Origin: Thunnus maccoyii
Lineage: Eukaryota > Chordata > Actinopteri > Scombriformes > Scombridae
Direction: 5' to 3'
DNA: 64,000 bases
Assembly (NCBI RefSeq): GCF_910596095.1
Contig: NC_056537.1
Coordinates: 2,766,574 to 2,830,573, forward strand
Position 1 is the first letter of the stretch; each line of letters begins with the position of its first letter. Below the pieces are notes generated by a model, which ran no database searches, had not been told where the DNA came from, and saw nothing but the letters and a program-made list of their open reading frames with translations. Positions 6,658-64,000 of the stretch are shown here, piece after piece. The position numbers and the translations under genes were made by a program.

Positions 6658-6666
6658 TCTGCAGAT

Positions 6667-11839: not shown

Positions 11840-12073
11840 GTGAGTACAGCTGATAATATTTACTGTGTTTTAAAGGTTAATATTCACAACAACCTTCAGC
11901 TCTACTCAGACAAGAAGACTTACTAATATGATATCTATTGATATTATATTCTAACTTGTTAAGTGGACCTATCGGATCCAAAATATCGAGCAAGCAAATA
12001 ATCAACAATACTGAAACTACAGTTTTGGTTTTTTCTACATATATTTTCATACTTTTGTTCTCAGTCTGCAGAT

Positions 12074-27900: not shown

Positions 27901-28184
27901 TTCATGGTTTGATTACGCAAACCAACAAAATACACCTGCAGGTACCAACACTTTTAGAGGCATATTTTTCAACTTGGGACAGAGCCAGGCAGCTGTTTCC
28001 TCCTGCTGTCAGTCTTAATATTAAACTTGAACACTTTCTCAGACAAAAAAATGTCAATTTAACTTAGTTCAATTTAATTCAGTTTGGTTCAGATTATTTG
28101 AGTTGACTGGGGCTCGTTTAACCTGGAATTATTTTGCATTCAGCTTTGTTTTATAATTTCTTTGTGTCCTCTCTGTCTCTCCAG
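24950..28184 (+). other. mlkl: intron 1 of mlkl
   Basis: Runs from donor GTAAAT to acceptor TCTGTCTCTCCAG ending at 28184. It holds a half-copy of a palindromic MITE (25829-26162); otherwise only AT-rich sequence and unsupported short frames. Confidence 0.6.
25829..26162 (+). repeat. palindromic MITE, half copy
   Basis: Begins TTAAAGGACAGGTTCACC and continues with TCTTAAAACAACAGTCAGG and TCATTCCTCCTGTTCATACTG. It corresponds to the left half of the complete element at 28736-29287. Confidence 0.65.
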
Positions 28185-28190
28185 CTGGTC

Positions 28191-28635
28191 ATGGACTTCA
28201 TAGATCCCATCCTGTCCATTGCATCACAGATCTACACCCTGGTTGACAATGTTAAGGCCAATAAGAAGCGCTGCCGCCGTGTCGCCCAGCGAGTCGAAGC
28301 CCTGGACGAGCTGGTGAGGTCCATCAAAAAGAGGGAGATGGCCCATATCTCTGTTGTAGAAAAGGCTCTAAAGGAACTCGCCATCACTCTGGAATCAGCA
28401 CAGGAGCTCATCAAGAAATACACCTTGGCCAACTGGATGGAGCGCATCCTGAACTCCAGCAGCCATGGAGACGAGTTCAGCACTGTGAACGAACGCCTCA
28501 ACGACGCCTTCCAGGTTCTGTCTGGAGCTCTGCAGGTGGAGCAGGGGAACATGCTGTACCAGGTGTTTGAATTGGCCTCCAGAGAGAAAGAAGACGAGGT
28601 GGACGGGAGGACGGACGATGCAGAGCTGAAGAAAT
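28191..28635 (+). CDS. mlkl: mlkl exon 2: four-helix-bundle domain
   Basis: Acceptor CTCCAG ends at 28184, then CTGGTC and the ATG at 28191. The exon encodes 148 residues plus one base (phase 1 donor GTGAGG at 28636). It contains the 4HB killer domain with motifs KKRCRRVAQRV, ITLESAQELIKKY and NERLNDAFQVLSGALQVE. An in-frame upstream ATG (28134) lies in the intron and is not used. Confidence 0.9.
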
Positions 28636-37600: not shown

Positions 37601-40600
37601 GTCTGTCTGCAGTTTGGTCAGGTGGGCAGGTGGGTTTTTTAACAGAAAACAGCTGCTGTTGCTGGAACCATACAGTAAAGGTGCTGTAAAAACAAAACTA
37701 GTAGTTGAAAGATGCTCTGTGGTTCAGACAAGCAGTCGTTTCTGTTTCAGTGTTAGTAAAAAGAAATATTGATTACTCCAGCTTCAAATTAAATTCAATG
37801 TTCATGATTTCTTGTTTATAATAAAAAGTTCTAATGATTATCACTGTTGTGTCTTAGACTGCACCAGACAGAAGAGAAATGTAAGGTTCATGGATGCATC
37901 AACAGCAGCAAGTTCCTGGTGGCTGAAGGCTACAGAGTTAAGGTACTGCAGCCAGTGCATGCTGGGATTGCTTCTGGCCCATTGGTTGGTGAGAACAAAT
38001 GAAGTCTTGATGTTGTTGTTTGTGGTTTTTGGTACAGTTGGGAGGTTTTGAGCTGGCGAAAACTGAGACATCACTAAGAAAGATGACGAAGGACAAACAC
38101 ATCAGGTCGCTGTGCTACTCCTCTCCTCAGATGCTCAACAACATCAACCACATCTACAGCAAGGAGTGTGAGATGTACAGGTCAGACAACCAGGAATTAC
38201 ATCCGCAGAGATGTTAAACTATGTTAAGTTGTTGCTGACAGATTTATGAGTGCTTTACTAATGCTTTATAGATCAGATGTAAGCCGTTAATAAGTGCAAA
38301 TTTAGGTTAGCCAGGATGTGAAGAATCCTTTTATCATTTCCATCTGGTCAGAATTCATCATCAATGTTGGTAATTCATTCATAAATGTTGTAATAAACCA
38401 GCAAGTCTCCAGTTATATAAATTAATAAGTCACTAGTGCAGTGCCTGTTCAAAATGTGCCTTTTCGGGCCGATTGCTTTGCCTCCAGCCATGACTTCAAT
38501 ACATAGAAAATTTAATATAGTTGATGTGAGGTGTGAATGAGTATATACACATACGACATGAAAGAAACTAACAGTATATTATACACAGATGATATAAATA
38601 ACAAGTACTCTAATAGTATATAAATTTTCTTTTCTCATTTCAAGCAGCCTAAAATAAAGTGGATCGATCACATTCAGATTTTAGTGGGTATGTTTCTCCA
38701 AAGATTTGTGCTTCGTCTGTAGTGGCACTTCATGGTTTCGGAACATATGAGACAAACTGGTTTTGAACTGCCCATGGAAAGTGTTTGCGCCGTTTTACAT
38801 GTGTAACTACAGTCATTGTGTATCGGGCTCTGAGCGCTTCCAAAATACAGGTGACCTACGCACAACAATGTACCTGAACGCCTCCTTGAAGGCTCTGTTT
38901 TCACTGTATACTTTTCTCTTTTTAGAGCACTTTTCTCTGAGCACTTTTCTCTGACTTATGTCACGCCTCGTCTCTGGTCTCTCCCTGACTCCTTGACTAT
39001 CGTGTGTCCAAATTGCATCAAATTTGACACGGTACCCCCTTTGGCTCCCAGCCATACACCCGTAAAATCTAGAGTCGATCAGATGAACAGTTCAAGAGAT
39101 ACACGAAGGACAAACAGACATACAGACAGTGATTCCTTCCTTTAGTAGAGATTAATAAAGGCTCATGACTTTCTCATTTTCTAATGAGCAGATATTCATG
39201 GTTCCCAGAGGATGAATCCTGCTGACTTTTGTGATCTCCTGACTTTCCACTAGCGCCACCAGGAGGTTGACATTTTGTGGTTCAAAGTGAAATATCTTGA
39301 CAACTGTGTGATCCATTGCCATGACATTTACTGCAGATATTCATGGTCCCTGGATGATTAATTCTAATGACTTTGGTGATCCTCTGACTTTTCAATTAGT
39401 GCCATCATCTGGTCAGAATTTAATTTTCTCCAATACTTACATAATACCTGCAAAAGTAATGACATTCCTATCAGGCTCAGATGTACTTTGTGTTTAGCTC
39501 ATGTCATAGAAATGATAAAAAACAAAAAAAAAAAACTCTCTACTTCAAGATGCAAAATTTCTTTTGAAGGACAAGAAAAAGTTTGTACAAAAGATTGCTC
39601 CAGACGTTGCTGATTTTATCAGGATATGTGTTCAGAGTACAAAAAATCTAATGACAAAGTTAAAAGAAAAAGAAATTTAAAGTCAAAACACTTAAAGGGC
39701 AGGTTCACAATTTTTCCAAGTCTGTCTTAAAACAACAGTCAGGAGCCCAAATGAACATTGAAACATGTTTTTCTTGCTGTAATCATTCCTCCTGTTCATA
39801 CTGACCATTAGAAGATCCCTTCATAATGCACTTACAATGGAAGTGATGGGCAACAAAATCCACAGTCCTCCCTCTGTGCAAAAATGTATTTCAAAGTTTA
39901 TCTGAAGCTAATATGAAGCTTCAGCGTCCAAATGAGTCAAATCAAGTAGATATCTTTCAACATTACAGTCTTTTTAGTGCCAAAGTTCCTCTTTTTGTTA
40001 CTATACTTCCACCTGCAGCTCAACAGGGAAACACTGTCCAAGGAAACACAAAGAGGGAATTTGATTTGATCTGATAATGTTAAAGCCATAAAACACTGAA
40101 AAAGGCCACTGCTTTGCTCAATCTGCAGATATCAGCTGATGACTTCCCACTGCTCTCTGGTTCTCTGTCTATAGATGAGATGGACCAATGATTGAGTGAA
40201 GATTCTCAAATCAAGCAATAAATCATTTCTCACTATCTTGTAAATGTTGTCTTTCAGCTTTGGGATCGTCCTGTGGGAAGTTGTGACCCGTCAGAGACCT
40301 TTTGAAGGTGTGTATGTGCAGAGCGGACATCAACATCCAACCCCAAACCAACACAACTTAATGCTGACCACAGCCACTGCTCTCTGTGAAAAGAGGAAAC
40401 ATTCAACTTTTAACAGCTGCATGTCAAGCCTACAGTAGTTAATCTTCCATCCACTAGTTCCCTGTTAAAACCTCTTTGCAAGATATCTTGGTGTCCTGTT
40501 TGACAGCGATTTATAGTTATTAATAGGTCATTAATGAATGTAGAAACAAACAATTTTAGGCATGAAATTTGTTATAATCCCTCCTAGAGCTGCAACAATG

Positions 40601-42134: not shown

Positions 42135-42254
42135 AACATTTCATCCCTCTTCCTCCTCGTCAGCTGTCCTCAGGGATTCTGCTTGTGATCGTTCTCAGAA
42201 GAATGTTGTCAAGCCTAAAAACTGGCCTGTAACTAACAAAACTGTGATATAATT

Positions 42255-42600
42255 TAGAGCTGCAATGATTAGCTGATTTATCAATTAGTCACCAACAATA
42301 TTTTATAATCGATGAGTAGTTTTGAGTAATTTTTGAGAAAAAATATCTAAATTCTCTGGTTCCAGCTTCTCAAATGTGAATATTTTCTAGTTTCTTTAGT
42401 CCTCTATGACAGTAACTGAATATCTTTGGGCTGTGGACTGTTGGTCAGGACAAAACATGAAGTTTGAAGACGTCACCTTGAGCTTTGGGAAACAGTGATC
42501 ACCATTTTTCACCATTTTCTGACATTTTATAAACCAAACAAGTAACTGATTAAATGAGACAATTATTAGCAGATTAATCAATAACGACAAGTCACTAAAA
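42255..42600 (-). repeat. hAT-like MITE in mlkl 3' flank
   Basis: TAGAGCTGCAATGATTAG at the start and GGCTGTGGACTGTTGGTCAG inside. It is the TAGGGCTGCAA family in opposite orientation to 29305. Highly similar copies are at 44355-44709 and 51432-51770, as part of larger duplicated blocks (about 42243-42950, 44345-45076, 51421-52115). Confidence 0.6.
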
Positions 42601-44354
42601 GTCATAAGTAATTACCTCAGTTTACGGTGACTCTTGGATAAGCACGCCTTCAAACTACAGCAACCTGTTTCCCAAAATCAACCTTCTTATGGATCTTCTT
42701 ACAATTATAGTGTGTTGTTTAAAGAGCATCATAACTTAAAATGTTTTTTTTAATGATTGTATATTAAGGACTCCAAACACTTGCAGGATGAACTGGTATT
42801 GTGGTGTCATTTTCGGGCTGGTAGTACTACAGTATTTTAGTGTACTTTCCAGAATAACTAGGTAAGTTGTATTCTATAGCACAACAAGTCTTCACGACCT
42901 TGTATATCTTCATTTCATACAAGAGCAGTATGTCGCTGTCATGTACAAACTTGTTACTCAGGAGATTTAACACTGGCTCTGCAGACTCTTGTAACTCCAT
43001 CTCAATCTGAAAAGGGCTCTATCTAGTGGTGGCTGGTTGTAGCAACAAGCAAACTGAAACAAGTCTGTGTTTTTTTGTTGTTATTGTCTTTGACTCTTTC
43101 AGCCTTTATGTTTATTTTGATTACTGATTCTTTCTGTGATTAAAAGAGGTGACTGATGCAACATGAGTGGTGATGTTTAAATGCTAAAATACACACAAAT
43201 ATCACATATAACAAGGGTGGAACTAACAGTGCTTTAGATAACAGCCAGCATGCTCTGTACTTACCCTGTAACTACACATAACAAGGGGGGAACAATCAAC
43301 TTAACTCATTCTGTAACTACAGAAGACAATGTGAGAACAATTTATTTCAATTTTACTTGCCTCAAAACAAGAACAAACTAAATTAACTACACAGTTTGCA
43401 ATCAGAAGACTATATGAACCGTATATATGCGTTCTGATTCATACCTCATGTTTTATCTTTAGCTATATTTATATTAAGTATAGCTGTATAGTTATTTCCT
43501 GGGATGAAAGGAGACCTTGCACAGAGCTGAAAAAGGGTAATCTTTCACCTTGAGGAGCCGTAATGCCATATTAAAATACCAGGGAGAAGACTTTCAACAT
43601 TTTAATGACTTCAGAATTGTCAACAAGTGAGTGACATCTTTGATGGGTGAGTTCTGACCAGCGATGGCAGGTGAAGCCACCAGGCCATAAATGAGCGCCA
43701 AGTGATGAAGTTTGCTGGTGAGGTGAAGTACAGTCTCCAGAAGCTGACAGCATCCATGACAACACATTGTCCCCTGGACTTTTGTTGCGAAGCAAATGCA
43801 CAGATGTACCCCTTGGCTATTTAAGTAGCTTATCCCAAAATGAAAAGGGAACAATGTGATTGTTCATAAGGTCATTTTGAAATAAAATCACATTACATTT
43901 ATTAAGTGCTGCAGAAGTCAACACTCCATCTTCCCTGAAACATCCAGATTTTTGCTCAGTTTTATGATCATACTATACCCTGTAATAACAGAATAGGTGC
44001 CTAGTAGTTAAACAAATAACTAAAGAGTTAATTCTCTCTAAATTTGTCCCTAATTTCAAGATTATTGCTCAGTAGCTCATACATACTGTAATAATAAAAT
44101 AGGTACCCAGTAGTTAAAAATAACAGTATACAGTATAAGTTCTTTATAAGTTCGTAAATTGTTGCCCCATATTCCATAACTTCACATCTTGTTCCCCAAT
44201 ACCTACATATATGTATTTATACGTACTGTACTAGTACACCGTTGGTAGATAGATAATACTGTAACTACGGAGTAATTACTCTCTACGTTGTGGGCTGTAA
44301 TCTAAAGCCAGTGTTGGATAGTGCATTTACTCAAGTACTGTACTTAGGTATGAT
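42601..44354. other. duplicated 3' flank blocks of mlkl, no gene
   Basis: The block at 42950-43205 (TTACTCAGGAGATTTAACAC … AGGTGACTGAT…CAACATGAGTGG) recurs at about 49084-49350 and 56757-57012 downstream of the two finTRIM genes. The part at 43205-44340 occurs only once in the window, with no gene recognised; a minus-strand frame at 43594-43854 has no known family. Confidence 0.5.
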
Positions 44355-44709
44355 TTTGAGCTGCAGTGATTAGTTGATTTATCAATCAGTCACCAACAAT
44401 ATTTTATAATCAATTAGTAGTTTTGAGTAATAAAAATATATCCAAATTTTCTGATTCCAGCTCTCAACTGTGAATATTTTCTGGTTTCTTTAGTCCTCTA
44501 TGAAAGTAAACTGAATATCTTTAGGCTGTGGACTGTTGGTCAGTACAAAACAAGACATTTGAAGACGTCACCTTGAGCTTTGGGAAACAGTGATCACTGT
44601 TTTTCACCATTTTCTGACATTTTATAAACTAAACAACTAACTGATTAAATAGGATAATTATTAGCAGATTAATCAATAATGAAAATTATCATTAGTTTCA
44701 GCCCTTATA
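44355..44709 (-). repeat. hAT-like MITE, second copy in mlkl 3' flank
   Basis: Starts GAGCTGCAGTGATTAG and ends ATTAGTTTCAGCCCTTA. It is collinear with 42255-42600 and followed by the same flank to about 45076, which shows a local duplication of the mlkl downstream block. Confidence 0.6.
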
Positions 44710-45076
44710 GACAGTAAATCAAAACAAGTCACTAAAAGCCATAAGTTGTTATCTCAGTTTACGGTGACTCTTGGATATGCATGTCTTTAAACTATAGGGA
44801 CCTGTTTCCCAAAATCAACCTTCTTATGGATCTTCTTACAATTATAGTGTGTTGTTTGAACTGCATCATAACTTAAAATGTTTTTTTAATGATTGTATAT
44901 TAAGGAGTCCAAACACCTGCAGGATGAACTGGTATTGTGGTGTCACTTTGGAGCTAGTAGTACTACAGTATTTTAGTGTACTTTCCAGAATAACAAGGTA
45001 AGTTGTATTCTATAGCACAAGTCTTCACTACCTTGTATATCTTCTTTCATACAAGAGCAGTATGACGCTGTCATGT

Positions 45077-46397
45077 ACAATCTTACCAGAGGTGGAAGAA
45101 GTAGTCAGATCCTTTAAAACAATCTTCATGAACTAGACTGTCATGGTTGAGTAAAATCTGAAATCTGATTTGATCTTTATGTCATATATTGCTCCGACAA
45201 AATCATACTGTACAAAATAAATTGTGGATATTTATAAAGACGTGAGCAGTGAAAGGAGTGTGTATGCTAATTACTCTACAACCTATCCTATTAGGATGTT
45301 AATGAGATGGCTTCAGCACCTCTGGTGAGTAATAGCTGGTTACTGTGTTGGGGGCTAAACAACTAGCATGCAAAATGCTAACAACTCTCTGCTAACACAA
45401 CCACTAGTGCACACTGAATACGATACACAACCACACTGTATATGCTTGGCAGAGCACTAAAGAAGTCAAAATTTCAAAAATTGAAATCTTTGGGAAAAAA
45501 GTATTAATAATTCAAAAATGATTAATTATTAATTATTGATAATTGCACAAAAAAAAGGCTGATATCACAGGAGCCTCACACGGGGCACCAATCTGTTGGG
45601 ACTGGTAGGAACGGTAGGACTGTGAACAACAAAACCAAATAATCTGACGCATTCATGTTCTGTGGGATTGTTCATCTATGGGTTGTTCAACTAGTATATT
45701 TTTGTAATCACTAGAAAATTTGATTAAACTGAATATCAGGAGAACTCAGTAATTTTAAAACCTGGGGAGTCATTTCAGTTCCTGAGAACACCTCGGTAAT
45801 TACAGTAATTAACAGGTTTAAATTGCCTATTTGTGTCTTATTCTGTGACAGCCAGACGATGCTGTAGATCTATAATCAAATGATAAAACATTGGAGCAGT
45901 GATCAGGTGTTTTCCTTCCAACTATCAATATGTAGAAATTATTGAGTAACAGTTGTAACTGTTAATTAATTGTACATGAATTTTAAGTTTAAACTTTAGA
46001 GTTTAAACTGTTACTTAATCATTTCTACATACTGATAGCTGACTTATTTGACAGTGGAGATGCTGTGCGTCATTGTCGTCTCCTCAAAATAAGGCTGTAG
46101 TGAGTGAGGACGTCCCTTTAGGTTAATTAAATTCCTCCATCCTCGCTGGGAGGAGGTGAGACATGAGTGAAGGAAGCAAGGAGCCACATCAGCCAAATGA
46201 AAAGCAGCCAGTATCCTTTTAAAACTGCTCCTCTACTTTGAATGAATCAGCGCTTGATAAGCCCTCCCTCTTCTTCCTGCTTTCAAACACAAAAAGCTCT
46301 ACTCTGTACTCATATTTCCTTGTTCCCTCCCCTTCAGATCTACAGTTTGAAGATGGGCGTAACCAACATGTAATGTAGCACAAGAGGTGTCAAACAT
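45077..46397 (+). promoter_or_regulatory. upstream region of finTRIM copy A
   Basis: No gene. It is shared with 52440-53943 in front of the second finTRIM (GGAGCCTCACACGGGGCACC, AAGTTTAAACTTTAGAGTTT, CAGCGCTTGATAAGCCCTCC), so this is the conserved promoter-bearing part of the duplication. A TATA-like CCTTTTAAAAC lies about 250 bp before the ATG. Confidence 0.5.
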
Positions 46398-46421
46398 GTT
46401 TCACTTCTCAGGAAGTGAAAC
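46398..46421 (+). promoter_or_regulatory. palindromic IRF/ETS composite site before finTRIM copy A
   Basis: GTTTCACTTC (46398-46407) and GAAGTGAAAC (46412-46421) form a perfect 10-bp inverted repeat around TCAG. Each arm holds an IRF core (AANNGAAA-type AAGTGAAAC). GGAAGTGAAAC also fits the ETS-IRF composite element. It lies 30-53 bp upstream of the ATG, and an identical copy precedes the second finTRIM. Confidence 0.6.
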
Positions 46422-46450
46422 TCAGACAGTCGTTGATACTGAGAGCTGAA

Positions 46451-48115
46451 ATGGCGCAGAAAGGAGATCAGCTCGACCAAGAAACCTTCTCTTGTTCCAT
46501 CTGTCTGGATCTACTGAAGGATCCGGTGGCTATTCCCTGTGGACACAGCTACTGCATGAGCTGTATTAAAAAACACTGGAATGAAGAGAATCAGAGGAAG
46601 ATCTACAGCTGCCCTCAGTGCAGACAAACCTTCGCACCGAGGCCTGTCCTGGTGAAAAACACCATGTTAGTAGCTTTAGTGGAGCAGCTGAAGAAGACTG
46701 GACTCCAAGCTGCTCCTGCTGATCACTGCTATGCTGGACCTGAAGATGTGGCCTGTGATGTCTGCACTGGGAGGAAGCTGAAAGCCCTCACGTCCTGTCT
46801 GGTGTGTCTGGCCTCTTACTGTGAGGAACACCTGCAGCCTCACTTTGAATCAGCTACATTTAAAAAACACAAGCTGGTCAACCCCTTGGAGAAGCTCCAG
46901 GAGAACATCTGCTCTCGTCATGATGAGGTGATGAAGATGTTCTGCCGTACTGATCAGCAGAGTATCTGTTATCTCTGCTCTGTAGAGGAACATAAAGGCC
47001 ACAACACAGTCTCAGCTGCAGCAGAAAGGACTGAGAGGCAGAGAGAGCTCAAGGTGAGTCGACAAAACATCCAGCAGAGAATCCAGGACAGAGAGAAAGA
47101 TGTGAAGCTGCTTCAACAGGAGGTGGAGGCCGTCAATCGCTCTGCTAATAAAGCAGTGAAGGACAGTGAGAAGATCTTCACTGAGCTGATCTGTCTCATC
47201 CAGAAAAGAAGTTCTGATGTGAAGCAGCAGATCAGATCCCAGCAGGAAACTGAAGTGAGACGAGTCAAAGAGCTTCAGGAGAAGCTGGAGCAGGAGATCA
47301 CTGAGCTGAAGAGGAGAGACATAAAAGTGAAGCAGCTCTCACACACAGAGGATCACAAAGAGTTTCTACACAACTACCCCTCACTGTCACAACTCAGTGC
47401 ATCTACAGACTCATCCAGCATCAATATCCGTCCTCTGAGATACTTTGAGGATGTGACAGCAGCTGTGTCAGAGCTCAGAGTTAAACTACAGGACGTCCTG
47501 AGGGAGAAAAGGACAAACATCTCACGGGCAGTGACTGAAGCTTTACTGTCAGAAGCAGAACCCAAGACCAGAGCTGGATTCTTAAAATATTCATGTGAAA
47601 TCACACTGGATCCAAACACAGCATACACATATTTGTTATTATCTGAGGGGAACAGAAAAGCAACATACATGAGTCAACCACAGTCTTCTCGTCACCCAGA
47701 CAGATTCACTAATTGGAGTCAGGTCCTGAGTAGAGAGAGTCTGACTGGACGTTGTTACTGGGAGGTGGAGTGGAGAGGGAGAGGAGTTCGTGTAGCAGTC
47801 GCATACAAGAATATCAGCAGAGCAAGAAACTCAAATGAATGTGGATTTGGATTTAATGACAAATCTTGGATGTTAGATTGTAACACTAACAGTTATACAT
47901 TTTGGTTCAACAACATCAGAACTCCCGTCTCAGGTCCATGTTCCTCCAGAGTAGGAGTGTACCTGGATCACAGAGCAGGTATTCTGTCCTTCTACAGCAT
48001 CTCTGAAACCATGACTCTCCTCCACAGAGTCCAGACCACATTCACTCAGCCTCTCTATGCTGGACTTCGTCCTTATTATTATGGAGTCACAGCTGAGTTG
48101 TGTAAACTCAAATAG
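46451..48115 (+). CDS. finTRIM / TRIM16-like E3 ubiquitin ligase, copy A
   Basis: A 554-residue, single-exon protein. RING ligands are C15, C18, C30, H32, C35, C38, C54 and C57 (C3HC4). A first B-box-like motif (CDVCTG…CLVC…C..H) and a second B-box (ICSRHDEV…C…C..C…H) follow, then a long charged coiled coil, then PRY (ITLDPNTAYTYLLLSEGNRK) and SPRY with RCYWEVEW and GVYLDHRAGILSFYS. This is the fish-expanded finTRIM type usually labelled TRIM16-like. Members act in the cytosol and many are virus- or interferon-induced (family knowledge). I start at the ATG 46451: the open frame extends upstream only through a GTG, and MAQKGDQLD is the standard N-terminus. ATTAAA at 48729 may be its poly(A) signal. 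The product differs from copy B at about 44 positions by eye (~92% identity). Confidence 0.92.
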   Translation: MAQKGDQLDQETFSCSICLDLLKDPVAIPCGHSYCMSCIKKHWNEENQRKIYSCPQCRQTFAPRPVLVKNTMLVALVEQLKKTGLQAAPADHCYAGPEDVACDVCTGRKLKALTSCLVCLASYCEEHLQPHFESATFKKHKLVNPLEKLQENICSRHDEVMKMFCRTDQQSICYLCSVEEHKGHNTVSAAAERTERQRELKVSRQNIQQRIQDREKDVKLLQQEVEAVNRSANKAVKDSEKIFTELICLIQKRSSDVKQQIRSQQETEVRRVKELQEKLEQEITELKRRDIKVKQLSHTEDHKEFLHNYPSLSQLSASTDSSSINIRPLRYFEDVTAAVSELRVKLQDVLREKRTNISRAVTEALLSEAEPKTRAGFLKYSCEITLDPNTAYTYLLLSEGNRKATYMSQPQSSRHPDRFTNWSQVLSRESLTGRCYWEVEWRGRGVRVAVAYKNISRARNSNECGFGFNDKSWMLDCNTNSYTFWFNNIRTPVSGPCSSRVGVYLDHRAGILSFYSISETMTLLHRVQTTFTQPLYAGLRPYYYGVTAELCKLK

Positions 48116-49374
48116 ACAGAAGTCATTTCAGACTTCGTGTCAGATTCTGTTGTAATTCTTCATGTTTTTGTCTCCATTGTTTCTGAGAGCTCGTTGCTGT
48201 GGTGTTTCTGAACTGCACAGAGATCAGCTGTCAATCAAACTGGGATTGTCAACACTTATTTTCTTCTCATTTGTTGTTCTTTTAATGTTTTGAGTTTCTT
48301 TAAATATCACTTTTTCCTGTGTTTTTTTTATCCATGGAGGCTATCACTGCTCATGATGATGTTTTTAACCTTCACTGACGTTTCTTCAGATGAAAATGTG
48401 AACTTCTGTTTGTTCTAAATGTTAGTTTCATGTTTGTATTGATGTATTTGTGTGCTGTTGTTTCTCTTCCACCTCAGTGTCTTAAACAGAGAAAACAGCA
48501 GAACTTCCTTCATCATAGATATTTTGTTCTCATCACTTCGTAGATTCATAAACTGTAATTATCATGATAATAATCAATGAGCAGATCATTTATTATGTTC
48601 TTGTACATTCTGGGTTAAACTAACTGATTGTGTGGTTGAAGTGAATCCGTACATGAAATCATTGAACAAGAGTCATTTAACAGACTTTATTGATCGGATG
48701 TGTGAACAATCTGAAGCTTTACATAATCATTAAAGGTATTATTTCAACATTGAACAAAGTGTTTTCTTCTGTCTTCATCTCAGGATCTCATTCAAAGCTT
48801 CTGGAGAAAATGTGAAACTAAAATGAGAGTTTATTTGAGGCAGTTTTCCTCCTGAAACACCACAAAGTACAGAGTTCATGTTCAGAACAGACAAACGTTT
48901 GTCAGTCAGTCTCTGTACTTTCAGCTTTCTTCACTAAAACATTTTAATGCTTTCAACACATTACACTGTTGAATAGTCTAATCTATAACAATACATATAT
49001 AACAAACTGATCAAATATTTTATGTGTAAAATATTGATTTGATAGGTTTGTACGGTACTTGAGTAAATGTACTTAGTTACTTTCCATCACTGCTTGTTAC
49101 TCAGGAACACTCACTCTGGAGACTGTTGTAACTCCATCCTAAAGTGAAAAGGGCTCCATTTAGTGGTTACTGGTTGTAGAAACATGCAAACTGAAACTAC
49201 TCTGTATCTTTTTGTTGTTGTTGTTACTTTCTTTTAATCTTTTAGCCTTTACGTTTATTATGACAAATGATTCTTTCTGTGATTAAAAGAGGTGACTGAT
49301 ACAACATGAGTGGTGATGTTTAAATGCTAAAATATGTAAAGACACAAATATCAGTCGATAACCCTAAAGATCAA
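48116..49374 (+). other. 3' UTR and flank of finTRIM copy A
   Basis: Collinear with 55659-57012 after copy B: GACAGAAGTCATTTCAGACTTC, the poly(A) region, and the TTACTCAGGA block. No other gene. Confidence 0.65.
48729..48734 (+). terminator. candidate variant polyadenylation signal, finTRIM copy A
   Basis: ATTAAA in ACATAATCATTAAAGGTATT, where copy B has AATAAA in the otherwise same sequence (56260). A one-base change weakens the signal in this copy if the hexamer is used. Confidence 0.5.
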
Positions 49375-50006: not shown

Positions 50007-50214
50007 GGCGACAAGGTGGCTCAGTGGTTAGCACTGTTATGTCACAGCAAGAAGGTCCTGGATTCAAGCACCGGCCATCCGAGATCTTGCTTTATGGAGT
50101 TTAGTTTGCATGTTCTTCCTGTGTTTGCATGGGTCTCTGCTGCGTGCTCTGGTTTCCTCTCATCATCAAAGACATGTATGTTAGGATAAGGTTAATGCTC
50201 CTGTCAGTGCATTT
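50007..50214 (+). repeat. tRNA-derived SINE at the duplication junction
   Basis: AGGGCGACAAGGTGGCTCAG then TGGTTAGCAC (A box) and GGATTCAAGCACC (B-box-like), followed by GTTTGCATGTTCTTCCTGTG. A second copy at 57503-57590 ends the second duplication unit; a minus-strand copy is at 61163-61363. The mlkl exon-10 duplicate starts immediately after it. Confidence 0.7.
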
Positions 50215-50288
50215 CTCATAATTTTAGATTTACTGCTCCTGAACAAGTTGCTGTATGTTACTTTTGTGTTACACTGTATTTCTTCCAG

Positions 50289-50429
50289 GTTGTTCAAGTA
50301 AAGAAATCTATCAGAAAGTATGCAATGAGAAATATCAAGAGCCGCTCCCGGACGACTGTCCTGAATCACTGGGATGTCTGATCAACGCCTGTCGGACCTA
50401 TGATAGCTTCCATAGAACATCAGCTGGAG
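50289..50429 (+). pseudogene. duplicated mlkl exon 10
   Basis: Near-identical to 41051-41191, with intact acceptor (TTTCTTCCAG, ends 50288) and donor GTAAAT (50430). Two visible amino-acid changes: CPEPLG to CPESLG and HRPSAG to HRTSAG. No other mlkl exons precede it in the duplicate, so it can only be used by splicing from the upstream gene. Reading through its donor gives a stop after GGKLQ. Confidence 0.8.
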
Positions 50430-50570
50430 GTAAATTACAATAACTGTCATCACCATAAACACAGTCACGTTAAAGGTGCTGTAGTTGCTAGAATGACTTA
50501 CAATGAGTGGACAGGTTTTAGTGCATGATTTGATACTGTATATAGAGACATTATTTTATTGGATTATAAT

Positions 50571-51240
50571 CAGTGGTGGAAGAAGTATTCAGATCCTTTA
50601 CTGAAGTAAAAGTACCAATACAGCAATGTAAAAAAATTTCCATTACAAGCTTGATGTTGTTAAAGTATTGCGGTTAAAGTAGTGGTTTGGTCCCTCTGAC
50701 TGATATATTATTATATATGACATCATTAGATTATTAATAGTGAAGCATCAGTGTTAGAGCAGCATGTTACTGTTGTAGCTGCTGGAGGTGGAGCTAGTTT
50801 ACACTACTTTATATACAGTTAGCTAGTTTAGTCATGTGGTTCCCAACCTAAGGGTTGGGCCCCTCCAAAGGGTCACCGGATAAATCTGAGGGGTCGTGAG
50901 ATGATTAATGGGAGAGGAAAGAAAAAAAAACAAAGTTCTGATACACAAATCTGTTTTCAGTTTTTGGACTTTTTTCTAATCTTTGATTTGACCTTTAACA
51001 ATGTAGTGTAATTTATGAGCTCATAATATGTTATTTTATGTAAAATTTTAATCTGAAAAGTAACTAAAGCTGTCAAATAAATGTAGTGGAGTAGAAAGTA
51101 CAATATTTCACTCTGAAATGTAGTGGAGTTGAATTATAAAGTAGCATCAAATGGATTATTCTCCAGTAAATTACAAGTACCTCAAAATTGTACTTAAACA
51201 CAGCACTTGAGTAAATGTATGTAGTTACTCTCCACCACTG
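50571..51240 (+). repeat. hAT-like MITE, duplicate of 41333-41996
   Basis: CAGTGGTGGAAGAAGTATTC to TCTCCACCACTG with the same flanking GGATTATAAT on the left. In this copy the sequence between the element and the last mlkl exon is shortened to about 20 bp. Confidence 0.65.
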
Positions 51241-51260
51241 TCCATCTTTCCCCTCCACAA

Positions 51261-51310
51261 TGCTGGTGGATAAACTGCGCAGCGTGGTGGCACAGATGGA
51301 GGAGGAATGA
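51261..51310 (+). pseudogene. duplicated mlkl exon 11 with lost acceptor
   Basis: Same 50 bases as 42085-42134, including the TGA at the end. The bases before it read CCCTCCACAA instead of CTCTTCTACAG, so the obligatory AG of the splice acceptor (51259-51260) is AA. The exon cannot be joined at its normal border. Confidence 0.8.
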
Positions 51311-51431
51311 AACGTTTCATTCCTCTTCCTCCTCGTCAGCTGTCCTCAGGGATTCTGCTTGTGATCGTTCTCAGGAGATTGTTGTCAAGGCTGAATACTG
51401 GCCTGTAACTAACAAAACTGTGATATAATTT

Positions 51432-51770
51432 AGAGCTGCAATGATTAGCTGATTTATCAATTAGTCACCAACAATATTTTATATTGATTTATAGTTTTGA
51501 ATAATTTTTTAAGAAAAATATCTAAATTCTCTGATTCCAGCTTCTGAAACGTGAATATTTTCTGGTTTCTTTAGTCCTCTATGACAGTAAACTGAATATC
51601 TTTGGGCTGTGGACTGTTGGTACCAAACAAGACATTTGAAGACATCACCTTGAGCTTTGGGAAACAGTGATCGACATTTTTCATAATTTTCTGACAAACA
51701 ACTAACTGATTAAACGAGATAATTATTAGCAGATAAACCAATAATGACAAGTCACTAAAAGCCATAAGTA
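51432..51770 (-). repeat. hAT-like MITE in duplicated mlkl 3' flank
   Basis: TAGAGCTGCAATGATTAGC start and GGGCTGTGGACTGTTGG inside; collinear with 42255-42600. Confidence 0.6.
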
Positions 51771-52122
51771 GTTATTTCTCATAAGTAGTTTACAGTGACT
51801 CATGACGTCTTCAAACTATAAGGACCTGTTTCCCTAAATCAACCTTCTTATGGATCATCTTACAATTATAGTGTGTTGTTTGAACAGTATCATAACTTAA
51901 CATGTTTTTTTTAATGACTGTATATTAAGGAGTCCAAAACACCTACAGGATGAACTGGTATTGTGGTGTCATTTTGTAGCTGGTAGTACTACAGTATTTT
52001 AATGTAATTTCCAGAATAGTCAGGTAAGTTGTATTCTATAGCACAACAAGTCTTCACGACCTTGTATATCTTCATGTCATACAAGAGCAGTATGTGGCTG
52101 TCATGTACAAACTTGTTACCAG

Positions 52123-52320
52123 AGGTGGAAGAAGTTCTCAGATCCTTTACTTCAGTAAAAGTACCAATATAGCCATGTAAAAATACTCCATTACAAATAA
52201 AAGTCCTGCATGAAAAATCTTACTTAAGTAAAAATACATAAGCACTAGCAGCAAAGTGTACTTAAGGTATTAAAGTAAAAGTACTGTGAGAACTTTGAGT
52301 GTTTTATTAATTTTTCCAGA
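52123..52320 (+). repeat. partial CAGTGGTGGAA-type MITE
   Basis: AGAGGTGGAAGAAGTTCTCAG followed by ACTTCAGTAAAAGTACC and AAATACTCCATTACAA. The same spot in unit A (about 45094) keeps only the first ~25 bases, so this part was deleted there or inserted here. Confidence 0.55.
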
Positions 52321-52439
52321 CATGAAAACTGAACACATTCAGGAGTTTGGAGTCATATTGACTGTAATTTTAGCAGTGAAACTCTCCCTGCTGTCCATAA
52401 GAAGTGATGCAACAAGAACTCTGATCCTTCAGTACAAGT

Positions 52440-53943
52440 ACAAATATTTCTGTCAGTAAAACAATCATCATGAACCAGACTGTTACGGTTGAGTAAAATC
52501 TAAAATCTGTCATATATTGCTCCAACAAAATCATACTGTACAAAATAAATTGTGGATATTTATAAAGACATGAGCAGTGAAAGGAGTGTGTGTGCTAATT
52601 ACTCTACAACCGATCCTATTAAGATGTTAATGAGATGGCTTCAGCACCTCTGGTGAGTAATAGCTGGTTGCAGTGTTGGGGGCTAAACAACTAGCATGCA
52701 AAATGCTAACAACTCTCTGCTAACACAACCACTAGTGCACACTGAATACGATACACAGCCACACTGTATATGCTTGGCAGAGCACTAAAGAAGTCAAAAT
52801 TTCAAAAATTGAAATCTTTGGAAAAAAAGTATTAATAATTCAAAAATTATTAATTATTAATTATTGATTATTGCACAAAAGAGGCAGATATCACAGGAGC
52901 CTCACACGGGGCACCAATCTGTTGGGACTGGTAGGAGCGGTAGGACTGTGAACAACAAAACCAAATAATCTGATGCATTCATGTTCTCTGGGATTCAGAG
53001 CTGCAACAAATAACTATTGATTTGTTTAAATGCATCTAATATTAAAAATGAACCTTTTACTCAAATTTACATTCTTAATTTAACCTCTTTCTTCACAAAT
53101 ACTTAAAGAATGTTATAAAATAATTTCATTATCTCTTCTATTACATTACTGGAATTGTATCATTTCTACAACAGTGATTCATTTCTCTGTTGTTCATCAA
53201 GTGTATTTCTGTAATCAACAGAGAGTTTGATTATACTGAATATCAGGAGAATAATTTTAAAACCTGGGGAGTCATTTCAGTTCAGAGACAGTCTGCAGGC
53301 TTCAGCTGTTTTTAGTGGTCCTTTACGTCAGTTCTGTTGTTTCAGTAATTAACAGGTTTAAATTGTCTACTTGTGTCTTATTCTGTGACAGCCAGACGAT
53401 GCTGTAGATCTATAATCAAATGATAAAACATTGGAGCAATTATCAGGTGTTTTCCTTCCAATTATCAATATGGAGAAATTATCAACTAACAGTTTAAACT
53501 GTTAATTAATTGTACATGAATTTTAAGTTTAAACTTTAGAGTTTAAACTGTTACTTAATCATTTCTACACATTGATAGCTGACTTCTACATATTTGACAG
53601 TGGAGATGCTGTGCGTCATTGTCGTCTCCTCAAAATAAGGCCATAGTGAGTGAGGACGTCCCTTTAGGTTAATTAAATTCCTCCGTCCTTGCTGGGAGGA
53701 GGTGAGACGTGAGTGAAGGAAGCAAGGAGCCACATTAGCCAAAAGAAAAGCAGCCAGTATCCTTTTAAAACTGCTCCTCTACTTTGAATGAATCAGCGCT
53801 TGATAAGCCCTCCCTCTTCTTCCTGCTTTCAAACACAAAAAGCTCTACTCTGTACTCATATTTCTTTGTTTCCTCCCCTTCAGATCTACAGTTTGAAGAT
53901 GGGCGTAACCAACATGTAATGTAGCACAAGAGGTGTCAAACGT
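52440..53943 (+). promoter_or_regulatory. upstream region of finTRIM copy B
   Basis: Collinear with 45110-46397, except for about 300 bp of extra sequence at 52990-53220 (starts with CAGAGCTGCAACAAATAAC, a MITE-like end). No gene. The promoter-proximal 400 bp are almost identical to copy A. Confidence 0.5.
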
Positions 53944-53967
53944 GTTTCACTTCTCAGGAAGTGAAAC
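53944..53967 (+). promoter_or_regulatory. palindromic IRF/ETS composite site before finTRIM copy B
   Basis: Identical GTTTCACTTC–TCAG–GAAGTGAAAC inverted repeat, again 30 bp before the ATG (53997). Flanking bases differ between the copies (ACAT versus ACGT before it), while the repeat itself does not. Confidence 0.6.
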
Positions 53968-53996
53968 TCAGACAGTCGTTGCCACTGAGAGCTGAA

Positions 53997-55658
53997 ATGG
54001 CACAGAAAGGAGATCAGCTCGACCGAGAAACCTTCTCTTGTTCCATCTGTCTGGATCTACTGAAGGATCCAGTGGCTATTCCCTGTGGACACAGCTACTG
54101 CATGAGCTGTATTAAAAAACACTGGAATGAAGAGAATCAGAGGAAGATCTACAGCTGCCCTCAGTGCAGACAAACCTTCGCACCGAGGCCTGTCCTGGTG
54201 AAAAACACCATGTTAGCAGCTTTAGTGGAGCAGCTGAAGAAGACTGGACTCCAAGCTGCTCCTGCTGATCACTGCTATGCTGGACCTGAAGATGTGGCCT
54301 GTGATGTGTGCACTGGGAGGAAGCTGAAAGCCTTCAAGTCCTGTCTGGTGTGTCTGGCCTCTTACTGTGAGAAACATCTGCAGCCTCACTTTAAATCAAC
54401 TACATTTAAAAAACACAAGCTGGTCGACCCCTCAGAGAAGCTCCAGGAGAACATCTGCTCTCGTCATAATGAGGTGATGAAGATGTTCTGCCGTACTGAT
54501 CAGCAGAGTATCTGTTATCTCTGCTCTGTGGAGGAACATAAAGGCCACAACACAGTCTCAGCTGCAGCAGAAAGGACTGAGAGGCAGAGAGAGCTCGAGG
54601 TGAGTCGACAAAACATCCAGCAGAGAATCCAGGACAGAGAGAAAGATGTGAAGATGCTTCAACAGCAGATGAAGGCCGTCAATCACTCTGCTAATAAAGC
54701 AGTGAAGGACAGTGAGAAGATCTTCACTGAGCTGATCCGTCTCATCCAGAAAAGAAGTTCTGATGTGAAGCAGCAGATCAGATCCCAGCAGGAAACTGAA
54801 GTGAGTCGAGTCAAAGAGCTTCAGGAGAAGCTGAAGCAGGAGATCACTGAGCTGAAGAGGAAAGACGTTGAACTGAAGCAGCTCTCATACACAGAGGATC
54901 ACAAAGAGTTTCTGCACAACTACCCCTCACTGTCACAACTCAGTGCATCTACAGACTCATCCAGCATCAATATCCGTCCTCTAAGATACTTTGAGGATGT
55001 GACAGCAGCTGTGTCAGAGCTCAGAGTTAAACTACAGGACGTCCTGAGGGAGAAAAGGACAAACATCTCACAGGCAGTGACTGAAGTTTTACTGTCAGGA
55101 GCAGAACCCAAGACCAGAGCTGAATTCTTAAAATATTCACGTGAAATCACACTGGATCCAAACACAGCATACACATATTTGTTATTATCTGAGGGGAACA
55201 GAAAAGCAACATACATGAGTCAACCACAGTCTTCTTGTCACCCAGACAGATTCACTGGATGGTGTCAGGTCCTGAGTAGACAGAGTCTGACTGGACGTTG
55301 TTACTGGGAGGTGGAGTGGAGAGGGGGAGGAGTTCGTGTAGCAGTCGCGTACAAGAATATCAGCAGAGCAGGAAACTCAAATGAATGTGGATTTGGATTT
55401 AATGACAAATCTTGGATGTTAGATTGTAACACTAACAGTTATAAATTTTGGTTCAACAACATCAGAACTCCCGTCTCAGGTCCTGGTTCCTCCAGAGTAG
55501 GAGTGTACCTGGATCACAGAGCAGGTATTCTGTCCTTCTACAGCGTCTCTGAAACCATGACTCTCCTCCACAGAGTCCAGACCACATTCACTCAGCCTCT
55601 CTATGCTGGATTTTGGCTTTATTATGAAGCCACAGCTGAGTTGTGTAAACTCAAATAG
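53997..55658 (+). CDS. finTRIM / TRIM16-like E3 ubiquitin ligase, copy B
   Basis: A 553-residue paralogue of copy A with all RING and B-box ligands kept (C15…C57; CDVCTG; ICSRHNEV). Differences cluster in the coiled coil (for example VKMLQQQMKAVNHS), around the PRY/SPRY entry (SCHPDRFTGWCQVL), and at the extreme C-terminus (AGFWLYYEATAE against AGLRPYYYGVTAE). The surface loops may therefore recognise different targets. Start chosen at ATG 53997 as in copy A. AATAAA at 56260 is a good poly(A) signal about 600 bp after the stop. Confidence 0.92.
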   Translation: MAQKGDQLDRETFSCSICLDLLKDPVAIPCGHSYCMSCIKKHWNEENQRKIYSCPQCRQTFAPRPVLVKNTMLAALVEQLKKTGLQAAPADHCYAGPEDVACDVCTGRKLKAFKSCLVCLASYCEKHLQPHFKSTTFKKHKLVDPSEKLQENICSRHNEVMKMFCRTDQQSICYLCSVEEHKGHNTVSAAAERTERQRELEVSRQNIQQRIQDREKDVKMLQQQMKAVNHSANKAVKDSEKIFTELIRLIQKRSSDVKQQIRSQQETEVSRVKELQEKLKQEITELKRKDVELKQLSYTEDHKEFLHNYPSLSQLSASTDSSSINIRPLRYFEDVTAAVSELRVKLQDVLREKRTNISQAVTEVLLSGAEPKTRAEFLKYSREITLDPNTAYTYLLLSEGNRKATYMSQPQSSCHPDRFTGWCQVLSRQSLTGRCYWEVEWRGGGVRVAVAYKNISRAGNSNECGFGFNDKSWMLDCNTNSYKFWFNNIRTPVSGPGSSRVGVYLDHRAGILSFYSVSETMTLLHRVQTTFTQPLYAGFWLYYEATAELCKLK

Positions 55659-57013
55659 ACAGAAGTCATTTCAGACTTCATGTGTCAGATTCTGTTGTAA
55701 TTCTTCATGTTTTTGTCTCCATTGTTTCTGAGAGCTCGTTGCTGTGGTGTTTCTGAACTGCACAGAGATCAGCTGTCAATCAAACTGGGATTGTCAACAC
55801 TTATTTTCTTTTCATTTGTTGTTCTTTTAATGTTTTGAGTTTCTTTAAATATCACTTTTTGCTGTGTTTTTTATCCATGGAGGCTATCACTGCTCATGAT
55901 GATGTTTTTAACCTTCACTGATGTTTCTTCAGATGAAAATGTGAACTTCTCTTTGTTCTAAATGTTAGTTTCATGTTTGTATTGATGTATTTGTGTGCTG
56001 TTGTTTCTCTTCCACTTCAGTGTCTTAAACAGAGAAAACAGCAGAACTTCCCTCATCATAGATATTTTGTTCTCATCACTTTGTAGATTCATAAACTGTA
56101 ATTATCATGTTAATAATCATTTATTATGTTCTTGTACATTGTGGGTTAAACTAACTGATTGTGTGGATGAAGTGAATCCGTACATGAAATCATTGAACAA
56201 GAGTCATTTAACAGACTTTACTGATCGGATGTGTGAACAATCTGAAGCTTTACATAATCAATAAAGTTATTATTTCAACATTGAACAAAGTGTTTTCTTC
56301 TGTCTTCATCTCAGGGTCTCATTCAAAGCTTCTGGAGAAAATGTGAAACTAAAATGAGAGTTTATTTGAGGCAATTTTCCTCCTGAAACACCACAAAGTA
56401 CAGAGTTCATGTTCAGAGCAGACAAACGTTTGTCAGTCAGTCTCTGTACTTTCAGCTTTCTTCACTAAAACATTTTAATGCTTTCAACACATTATACTGT
56501 TGAATAGTCTAATCAATAGCAATATATACATAACAAACTGATCAAATGTTTTATATGTAAAATATTGATCTGAAAAGTAATTAAAGTTGTCAAATAAATG
56601 TAGTTGAGTAGAAAGTACAATATTTCCCTCTGAGATGTAGTGGAGTGGAAGTATAAAGTAGCATCACATGGAAATACTCAAGTAAGGTATAAGTACCTCA
56701 AAATTGTACTTAAGTACAGTACTTCAGTAAATGTACTTAGTTACTTTCCATCACTGCTTGTTACTCAGGAGATTTAACACTGGCTGTTGTAACTCCATCT
56801 CAAACTGAAATGTGCTCCATCTAGTGGTTACTGGTTATAACAACAAGCAAACTGAAACAAGTCTGTATTTTTGTTGTTGTTGTTGTTACTTTCTTTTAAT
56901 CTTTTAGCCTTTATGTTTATTTTGATTACTGATTCTCTCTGTGATTAAAAGAGGTGACTGATACAACATGAGTGGTGATGTTTAAATGCCAAAATATGTA
57001 AAGACACAAATAT
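55659..57013 (+). other. 3' UTR and flank of finTRIM copy B
   Basis: Collinear with the flank of copy A, plus a partial CAGTGGTGGAA-type MITE in + orientation at about 56570-56754 ending CTTTCCATCACTG. No gene. Confidence 0.6.
56260..56265 (+). terminator. polyadenylation signal, finTRIM copy B
   Basis: AATAAA in ATAATCAATAAAGTTATT, followed within 30 bp by GTGTTTTCTTCTGTCTT, a GT/T-rich downstream element. Confidence 0.6.
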
Positions 57014-61975: not shown

Positions 61976-62017
61976 CCACCAGAGTCCGCCATTTAGACGG
62001 CATGAGAGAACTCACAA

Positions 62018-62215
62018 CAGTGATGTTGAAAGATATCGACTTGATTTGACTCATTTGGACGCTGAAGCTTCACATTAGCTTCAGATAAACTTTTAAATAC
62101 ATTTTCACACAGAAAGAGGACTGTGGATTTTGTCTCCCATCACTTCCATTGTAAGTGCATTATGAAGGGATCTTCTAATGGTCAGTATGAACAGGAGGAA
62201 TGATTATGGCAAGAA
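62018..62215 (-). repeat. palindromic MITE fragment, right arm
   Basis: TTGATTTGACTCATTTGGAC, CTGAAGCTTCACATTAGCTT and CAGTATGAACAGGAGGAATG match the right half of 28736-29287. Confidence 0.6.
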
Positions 62216-62610
62216 AAACCAATGTCAACTGAAGTTAGTGGTGAGTTCTGAAGCCAAGTTTGTAGGCTGGATTAAAAAGGCCATTAAAATTGAAATTCCC
62301 ACCAAAATGGGAACAAGCGTCGATGACCTGGCTCAGCATTTTTGGGCTCTCTGGTGAGATTTGAAAAGATGTTTTAATGGGAAATATCCTCCTGAGATCA
62401 AATGCACCTCTTCAGTTTCAGTTCACAAGATTTTGTTCATTCTGAATTCACTTGGTTTCTGATAAATTCACTTCAGCACAATTCAGTTAGATATGTGTAG
62501 GTCAAGGTTTTCTTCATTTCAGTTTCAGTTTAACTCAATCTGGTTCACTTGACTGTGACTCCATTTGATTTCATTTCAAGCTAACTATCTGTCTGTCTCT
62601 ACAGCTAATC

Positions 62611-63456
62611 ATGGATACAATAGAACCGATATTGGGCCTTTGTAAAACTATCCTCGACTTGGTTGAGAAGACGAAGACCAATAAGGAGCGCTGCCAACGA
62701 CTTGCGCAGAGAGTCAAAGACCTGGAGGAACTGGTTCTGACCATCAAACAAAGGCGGCCGGGTCAAATGTCTGACACTGTAACCAACGCTCTGAAGCAAC
62801 TCTGCATCACTCTGGAATCAGCCAGGGAACTGATGAGGAAATATTCCCAAACTACTCGTTTTAAGAGTTTCCTGAAGTCCATGTCTCATGAAGACAAATT
62901 CTGCAAGGTGAATGAAAGACTGACTGATACCTTCCAGCTCCTGTCTGGCGCTCTGCAGATCGAGCACGGGAACATTTTGTACGAATTGTATGACAATGTT
63001 TCAGGGAGGAGACGGGGTGAAGAGTACTGCAGTGGCCCCACAGACCCTGTGCCTGCCCCCTGCATGTTGCCCTCTGCACCTCCCTGTAGCCCTATACCTT
63101 CCACACCTGTCACCTGCATGACACCCTCTGCATCTGTCTGTAGCCCCGTAACTCCCACACCTGTCACCTGCATGATACCCTCTGCATCTGTCTGTAGCCC
63201 CGTAAGTCCCATGCCTGTCACCTGCATGATACCCTCTGCATCTGTCTGTAGCCCCGTAACTCCCATGCCTGTCTGCTGCTTCATGACCTCCAGGCCTCTC
63301 TGTAGCCCCGTCACTCCCATGCCTGTCCTTCGCATCATTTCTCCAGTCCGTGTCGGCGCTGTGGCTCCCATATGTCTGCCTGTCAATGTGGCCACCATGT
63401 CTGTCACCAGGTCTATCACCTCCATGCCTTTTTCACTACAAAATAATCCACGGTAA
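62611..63456 (+). CDS. MLKL-like four-helix-bundle protein with repeat tail (or first coding exon of a second MLKL gene)
   Basis: Acceptor TCTCTACAG ends at 62604; ATG at 62611. The first ~125 residues match the mlkl killer domain (NKERCQRLAQRV, ITLESARELMRKYS, NERLTDTFQLLSGALQIEHG). This domain forms the membrane-attacking bundle in necroptosis. The open frame then runs on to residue 281 through about five imperfect 18-residue Pro/Cys/Ser/Met repeats (core SASVCSPVTPTPVTCMIP) instead of brace and pseudokinase. AATAAA at 63675 lies 219 bp past the stop. Alternative: a donor-like GGG|GTGAAG at 63017 would end the exon in phase 1, exactly like mlkl exon 2. The repeats would then be an intronic 54-bp minisatellite and the kinase exons would lie beyond the window. 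The 4HB part is certain, the tail is not. Confidence 0.7.
   Translation: MDTIEPILGLCKTILDLVEKTKTNKERCQRLAQRVKDLEELVLTIKQRRPGQMSDTVTNALKQLCITLESARELMRKYSQTTRFKSFLKSMSHEDKFCKVNERLTDTFQLLSGALQIEHGNILYELYDNVSGRRRGEEYCSGPTDPVPAPCMLPSAPPCSPIPSTPVTCMTPSASVCSPVTPTPVTCMIPSASVCSPVSPMPVTCMIPSASVCSPVTPMPVCCFMTSRPLCSPVTPMPVLRIISPVRVGAVAPICLPVNVATMSVTRSITSMPFSLQNNPR
63055..63340 (+). repeat. 54-bp minisatellite in the MLKL-like ORF
   Basis: About five imperfect units with core CCTGTCACCTGCATGATACC then CTCTGCATCTGTCTGTAGCC and CCGTAACTCCCATG. Unit length is a multiple of three, so the frame stays open; the opposite strand is open as well. Confidence 0.85.
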
Positions 63457-63539: not shown

Positions 63540-64000
63540 GGGCTGCTTTGCTGAAATTTCGTAGGGGGCGCTATTCAGCCAGTTTGCATCACTGATGGAA
63601 TATTGTCATGTAGACGTGTTCAGGCCGGGACTCTTATCAAACATATAAAGTTTGGTGCAGGCTGGAGCATTTACAATAAAGTTATAGCAACTTCCTCTGT
63701 CATGGTGAAACATCAAATCTCAACGGTGTGAGGATGAGAATTTTCTGCAGGGTGAGACATGTCTGTCTCGCTCACACCTGTGTCATCAAAATCATGCAAG
63801 TTTTGGGTCCATTCACTTGAATTTCAATTAGTAAATTGAAAACCCTTGATGAGTTTGTGTGTAAAACAAATTAATTTCCTAATTTTCATCAAGTCTATTT
63901 TTAGAAAAGTAAAGACTTTTGACCCACATGACCTGGTCAAAGTTTGATTGACATGTGTACTGTCAGGTGTGTAGAGACAATAAGTAACTGCAGCTGGACA
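63540..64000 (-). repeat. inverted copy of the repeat inserted at 8504-10165, running off the window
   Basis: TGAGGATGAGAATTTTCTGC (63731 on), GTGTCATCAAAATCATGCAA, ATTAATTTCCTAATTTTCAT and CATGACCTGGTCAAAGTTTG are reverse complements of text at about 9770-10020. The element continues past the right edge. Confidence 0.65.

Follow-up and report, generated by a model that had tools for sequence, protein, structure and literature searches.

The reading frame at 62611-63453 on the plus strand of our window (the whole 64,000-nucleotide stretch analysed, C5:2766574-2830573) is best explained, on balance, as a stand-alone, kinase-less paralogue of MLKL, a protein in which a killer domain is restrained by a pseudokinase brake. 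Because the alternative of a second complete MLKL gene fails, because the frame recurs in three genomic copies and because its bundle appears constrained, we judge from the genome sequence that a family of kinase-less MLKL paralogues is likely in this fish. The first-pass annotation had proposed, should the frame be expressed as read, an MLKL paralogue free of pseudokinase control, and this proposal is supported in part, both by the three copies and by the lack of detectable brace or pseudokinase exons belonging to the frame itself.

A 4HB reading frame that continues into a repeat array

The frame comprises 281 codons with no internal stop and is closed by a TAA at 63454-63456. Pfam MLKL_N (PF22215) covers residues 4-131 at 121.1 bits (E=3.2e-35; cut-off 27 bits), which bears out the description of an uninterrupted 281-residue frame opening with an MLKL 4HB domain. 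We assign this MLKL-type 4HB to codons 1-135 (62611-63015, plus strand), in agreement with PDB and Foldseek comparisons: all seven PDB sequence matches to the frame at E<=1 are MLKL, and the first ten Foldseek ranks for a predicted model of the product are all MLKL structures. The model itself has modest confidence in the 4HB part (pLDDT 52-84 per ten-residue block) and falls below 50, without confident structure, over residues 132-281. Codon usage contributes 16.4 bits over the 135 codons of the 4HB and 2.7 bits over 145 codons of the tail, the latter giving no clear signal. Phage records and prokaryote contigs yielded no relative, nor did viral contigs, which were covered by one protein scan and one exact repeat pattern.

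A splice acceptor (tacag, 62600-62604, plus strand) precedes the 4HB and defines an exon that would start at 62605. Its layout of pyrimidine tract, CAG, six bases and ATG is the same at 28182-28193 in copy 1, an apparently complete mlkl gene in the window, and the acceptor is present in all three copies of the 4HB-plus-tail arrangement. Downstream, the AATAAA that had been placed 219 bp after the stop is confirmed at 63675-63680 (plus strand), where 0.22 would be expected by chance in 219 bp of the window. The tandem duplicate of the frame has an AATAAA too; the distant copy ceases to be homologous about 61 bp beyond its stop, and its first AATAAA lies 372 bp from that stop. Just past the AATAAA in the window, an inverted dispersed repeat of 281 bp at 63720-64000 is 93% identical to 9746-10026.

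The tail contains a 54-bp tandem array at 63052-63327 (plus strand; 5.1 copies, 0% indels) whose 18-residue unit is rich in P, V, S, T, C and M, followed at 63328-63456 by the last 42 tail codons and the TAA stop, which is common to all three copies. Where about 145 residues of repeats had been described, the array is real, but clear repeats span only about 92 residues, and the last 42 are at most a degenerate repeat (5 of 500 shuffles attained as high a local score). The window copy's tail has 31 Pro, 13 Cys and no Lys among 146 residues; one Lys occurs in the 128-residue tail of the distant copy. Searched against Pfam, the tail matches no family above cut-off. The earlier caution that an in-frame 54-bp repeat stays open trivially is upheld: the chance of an open tail is 0.12 (a stop-free random 54-bp unit of the same composition, multiplied by that for 53 open flanking codons), and three of the six frames of the array are open. 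The 24 variable columns among array units split 10/7/7 by codon position, with no synonymous bias. The 4HB is thus beyond chance, and the openness of the tail is not. We also considered and rejected a gene on the minus strand of the array, where frames of 211 and 143 codons are open; the better of these surpasses the plus frame within the array in codon usage (8.3 versus -2.7 bits), and nothing beyond codon usage supports it.

Genomic copies and the search for brace and pseudokinase exons

A DNA query of the fish's own assembly (782,140,779 bases, 54 contigs) returned six places, namely the frame itself, a tandem copy, a distant copy, copy 1 and two copy-3 mlkl genes, a count from one search that would miss diverged copies. 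Three of these join a 4HB to the repeats: the window copy (281 codons), the tandem copy at C5:2861817 (299 codons), which is longer by one unit, and the distant copy at C5:5602552 (263 codons), which is shorter by one, giving 5, 6 and 4 units, respectively, all in frame in the putative translations. All three retain the acceptor and the start, the bundle, the frame of the tail and the stop. The 4HB frames of the copy-3 genes start at C5:2836276 and C5:2868949, and each is followed by brace and pseudokinase exons; the copy-3 bundle is 74% identical to that of copy 1. Along the locus, the order is copy 1, the window copy, copy 3, the tandem copy of the frame and the tandem copy of copy 3. TRIM genes separate copy 1 from the window copy and copy 3 from the tandem copy, and others follow the second copy 3.

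The neighbourhood contains several other duplications and repeats. A recent tandem duplication, C5:2822575-2838500 and C5:2855215-2871503 (ends set by the stretch compared), has main blocks 97.9-99.5% identical at an offset of 32.6-33.0 kb and contains the window copy together with the start of the copy-3 gene; kinase and TRIM hits suggest that its unit extends as far as about 2.887 Mb. Within the window and upstream of the frame, a segmental tandem duplication (40956-49000 and 50211-56531, the query having been cut at 49000; main blocks 81-94% identical) holds a TRIM gene (46379-48115 and 53925-55658) together with a single late pseudokinase exon of mlkl, whose stray duplicate lies at 50282-50428 (plus strand). 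Three consecutive long open frames occupy 1006-2715, 6628-8334 and 12002-13669; the first and third match RING, B-box, TRIM coiled-coil and SPRY, and the second resembles its TRIM-like neighbours by eye only. A Tc3-like transposase helix-turn-helix fragment lies at 21272-21625 (HTH_Tnp_Tc3_2, E=7e-15).

Copy 1, on the plus strand, has a 4HB exon at 28191-28635 with a phase-1 donor GT at 28636, a brace exon at 29809-29907 that joins exon 2 and the next exon in frame, and a first pseudokinase exon at 32567-32744. Further pseudokinase stretches lie within open frames 34529-34657, 35574-35750 and about 41050-41190, with only some of the exon edges fixed and no exon located from 35750 to 41050. Three of the four pseudokinase stretches match Pfam PK_Tyr_Ser-Thr at 16.1-22.6 bits, below the 23.1 cut-off, and the first pseudokinase exon matches no kinase model; short pieces of a pseudokinase may give such weak matches. 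A dispersed repeat upstream of our frame (62017-62219) recurs in the copy-1 intron after the 4HB exon (29019-29212) and at 39767-39969 and 25903-26086, these members being 73-94% identical to the first.

By tblastn, no brace or pseudokinase exon was detected at E<=1e-3 in the 6,610 bp from the donor-like site at 63017 to copy 3 (best E 0.20) or within 15 kb downstream of the bundle in the distant copy (best E 0.15), and none at E<=0.1 in 60 kb around the distant copy (5.578-5.638 Mb). As a positive control, we inserted exons of about 50% identity into the 6.6-kb stretch, and the search recovered them at E<=1e-3 in 17 of 20 trials for the brace and in 20, 17, 19 and 19 of 20 for the other exons; exons diverged beyond about 50% identity could escape the search. 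The frame therefore appears to belong to a gene without detectable kinase exons of its own. The region around the distant copy also holds a diverged 4HB (C5:5586541-5586888, minus strand) that has a premature stop in the bundle and is 32% identical to our frame and 42% to copy 1; no kinase exon for it was found in 5.578-5.638 Mb.

These results bear directly on the ordinary alternative that the first-pass annotation itself had raised, namely that the frame opens a second complete MLKL gene, with brace and pseudokinase exons immediately beyond the right edge of the window. Such a gene would fit the phase at 63017, which is that of mlkl exon 2, and the report of two to four MLKL genes in 31.1% of the 174 ray-finned fish species surveyed (PMC11476962). 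However, when the sequence right of the window is checked as had been advised, the next mlkl exons prove to be those of copy 3, a different gene whose own 4HB frame starts at C5:2836276. With no detectable brace or pseudokinase exons of its own and three genomic copies, the frame leaves this alternative largely excluded, and on the genome sequence, in which the search could have overlooked only exons diverged far beyond 50%, we reject it as almost certainly wrong.

A different possibility is that the 4HB exon is spliced at 63017, in phase 1, to other exons, in which case the array would be intronic. Its partners could be exons of unrelated sequence, or they could be the brace and pseudokinase exons that the neighbouring mlkl gene carries about 7.9 kb downstream, with the 4HB exon of that neighbour left out. 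The GTGAAG at 63017-63022 (plus strand) is indeed in the phase of mlkl exon 2, as had been noted, matching the phase-1 donor at 28636; a phase-1 donor-like site is kept at this position in all three tail copies, and a neighbouring brace exon is available at C5:2837524. The site is nonetheless weak (4.1 bits on a donor matrix not derived from data, by which 8.3% of GTs in the window score at least as high), and it differs from GTGAGG, the donor that follows AAAT in copies 1 and 3 and that is absent from the exon-plus-tail sequence of all three tail copies. For the distant copy, moreover, 60 kb of surrounding sequence revealed no brace or kinase exon, and splicing into the neighbour's 4HB exon would, by our reading, break the frame, as phase 1 would meet an exon that starts six bases before its ATG. 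A higher-scoring site, GTAAGT after CCC at 63202, is in phase 0. The likeness between the end of the copy-1 exon and the sequence past 63017 (E....G.TD) is ambiguous, its score being reached by 4 of 1000 shuffles at the protein level and not being significant in DNA. We consider splicing at 63017 distinctly improbable. Because no further mlkl exons of the gene were detected downstream, translation of the tail seems the likelier outcome.

Divergence of the bundle and the tail

Between the window and distant copies, the bundle has dS 0.106 and dN 0.049 (ratio 0.47); between the window and tandem copies, it has three synonymous changes and no nonsynonymous change. When both pairs are pooled, 12 of 27 bundle changes are synonymous against 22.5% expected (p=0.009, with the window copy shared by both pairs), and the window-distant pair alone shows a weak excess (9 of 24). 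Polarization by copies 1 and 3 assigns six changes to the window lineage (five nonsynonymous) and three to the distant lineage (one nonsynonymous), leaving 15 unplaced. Nonsynonymous sites have also changed less often in the bundle (15 of 314) than in the tail (about 30 of 282; p=0.008). The pooled count supports selection to keep the 4HB of the kinase-less copies; the weak excess in the window-distant pair and the mostly nonsynonymous changes on the window lineage tell against it.

The tail presents a different picture. For the window-distant pair, its dS is 0.100 and its dN 0.113 (dN/dS 1.13), and its divergence (39 of 384 sites) is slightly above that of three aligned non-coding flanking blocks (123 of 1,735, p=0.044; the flank count leaves out 61 bp after the stop, with two changes, and two short upstream blocks of 91.6% and 96.2% identity), so the tail appears neutral or slightly faster. 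The chance that it would stay open through 39 changes is about 0.5. We discarded the absence of tail substitutions between the tandem copies as a sign of constraint, because the 544 bp that follow contain only one change. The array lengths of the three copies differ by whole 54-bp units only, in keeping with the check that repeat indels should preserve the frame, but with a 54-bp unit this preservation is trivial, and frame-breaking indels in tail and flanks are too few for a test. The window and distant copies have the exon, its stop and the region upstream in common: homology extends in blocks through about 4.7 kb upstream and breaks off about 61 bp after the stop. In the sequence beyond that point, taken as far as C5:2838500 and 5617999, the sole match of at least 80 bp is one of 72% over 145 columns (C5:2836881 versus 5604282), which a repeat-like stretch from upstream of the frame matches as well.

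Thus, the idea that the repeat tail is a new regulatory or assembly module receives no support from selection; such a role is possible but unproven, and evolution so far speaks against strong sequence constraint. Evolution like that of non-coding DNA would suit splicing at 63017, with the array as intron, and would equally suit a disordered tail tolerant of sequence change.

An unconstrained tail would also be expected if the frame were a decaying fragment, a 5' piece of mlkl in a rearranging mlkl/TRIM cluster that was recently functional, or never a gene, and remains open by luck. Partial mlkl duplicates do exist here, such as the kinase exon at 50282, as does a 4HB with a premature stop (C5:5586888, minus strand). 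Against decay stand the constraint on the 4HB over three copies and the comparison with copy 1. The bundles of the frame, which we call copy 2 in this comparison, and copy 1 are 52% identical over 133 columns (dS 0.76, dN 0.35, ratio 0.46), and the two are equally distant from mouse MLKL, sharing 36 of 131 and 32 of 130 residues with it, respectively. With mouse MLKL as outgroup, copy 1 alone agrees at six positions and copy 2 alone at nine, so that copy 2 shows no excess of changes of its own. Finally, a neutral 135-codon bundle would stay stop-free with a chance of only about 0.03 at 0.38 substitutions per site. We regard decay as rather improbable, and prefer a retained, kinase-less paralogue.

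Analogous killers and a possible mode of action

The frame shares with MLKL of teleosts and other vertebrates a homologous 4HB executioner domain, and its 5' exon layout is that of copy 1. Complete MLKL, however, has a brace and a pseudokinase, whereas the frame has detectable exons for neither and carries the 18-residue repeat tail instead. An MLKL without much of the pseudokinase is already known as a human splice form: isoform 2 (MLKL2) has 263 residues and lacks exons 4-8 (PMC4725247), and by inference keeps the brace. MLKL2 is spliced from a full gene, whereas the frame would represent a gene in its own right that lacks kinase exons and bears a repeat tail. Searches of the open-access literature returned no description of an MLKL paralogue that lacks the kinase and carries repeats. 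The survey of ray-finned species cited above, as it describes its filter, retained only sequences with both domains intact (PMC11476962), and a gene like this one would therefore have been removed.

The nearest analogues in layout appear to be plant RPW8/HR and fungal HET-S proteins. In RPW8/HR proteins, a domain resembling the MLKL bundle precedes C-terminal repeats of 21 or 14 residues that vary in number; this number affects necrosis or immune activity, and the gene cluster varies structurally (PMC6684095). The same authors liken RPW8/HR to HET-S, in which a helical-bundle (HeLo-domain) killer carries C-terminal 21-residue repeats (PMC6684095). Our frame is alike in layout, with a bundle, putative C-terminal repeats of variable number and a varying cluster, and is not a member or orthologue of RPW8/HR: against a cut-off of 30.4 bits, the Pfam RPW8 model gives 25.2 for the complete frame and 28.1 for the isolated 4HB. 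The repeats of RPW8/HR are predicted to be helical, whereas those of the frame are Pro-rich and modelled without confident structure, and no partner NLR is known here. HET-S repeats form amyloid; the likeness to HET-S is one of layout, seen here at the level of sequence.

How might such a protein work? We propose that a 4HB coding exon, severed from the brace and pseudokinase, would read into the array and then stop, and that transcription from its own upstream region would yield a 4HB with a flexible Pro/Ser/Cys-rich tail. Without a pseudokinase, restraint or assembly of the 4HB would not proceed through RIPK3 phosphorylation of a kinase domain. Control could most simply be exerted by amount, by partners and by the disordered tail, with repeat number setting valency, as in RPW8/HR and HET-S. 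The 4HB could then permeabilize membranes itself or, alternatively, join and modulate oligomers of full-length MLKL. Flounder PoMLKL offers a precedent for the first course, as its 4HB alone kills HEK293T cells, with N105 and D106 required for full killing by flounder MLKL (PMC10825024); the corresponding residue pair in our frame is T105 and D106. With human MLKL, a piece of 201 residues killed cells, whereas shorter ones of 154 and 166 residues failed to do so (PMC4725247). As the flounder domain kills and short human pieces do not, autonomous killing by the 4HB of our frame is plausible but not assured.

More broadly, we offer tentatively, and as a doubtful rather than a probable reading, that the layout of RPW8/HR and HET-S may have evolved independently here, as a pseudokinase-free 4HB executioner set by a repeat tail of changing length and forming a small family in an mlkl/TRIM cluster. 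If the copies are retained genes, an MLKL paralogue family without the brake would provide a natural test of how the 4HB is controlled without RIPK3 and the kinase domain. If the tail is translated, this family would give animals a counterpart to the bundle-plus-repeat immune killers of plants and fungi, and convergence of regulated cell death would become testable in one fish locus.
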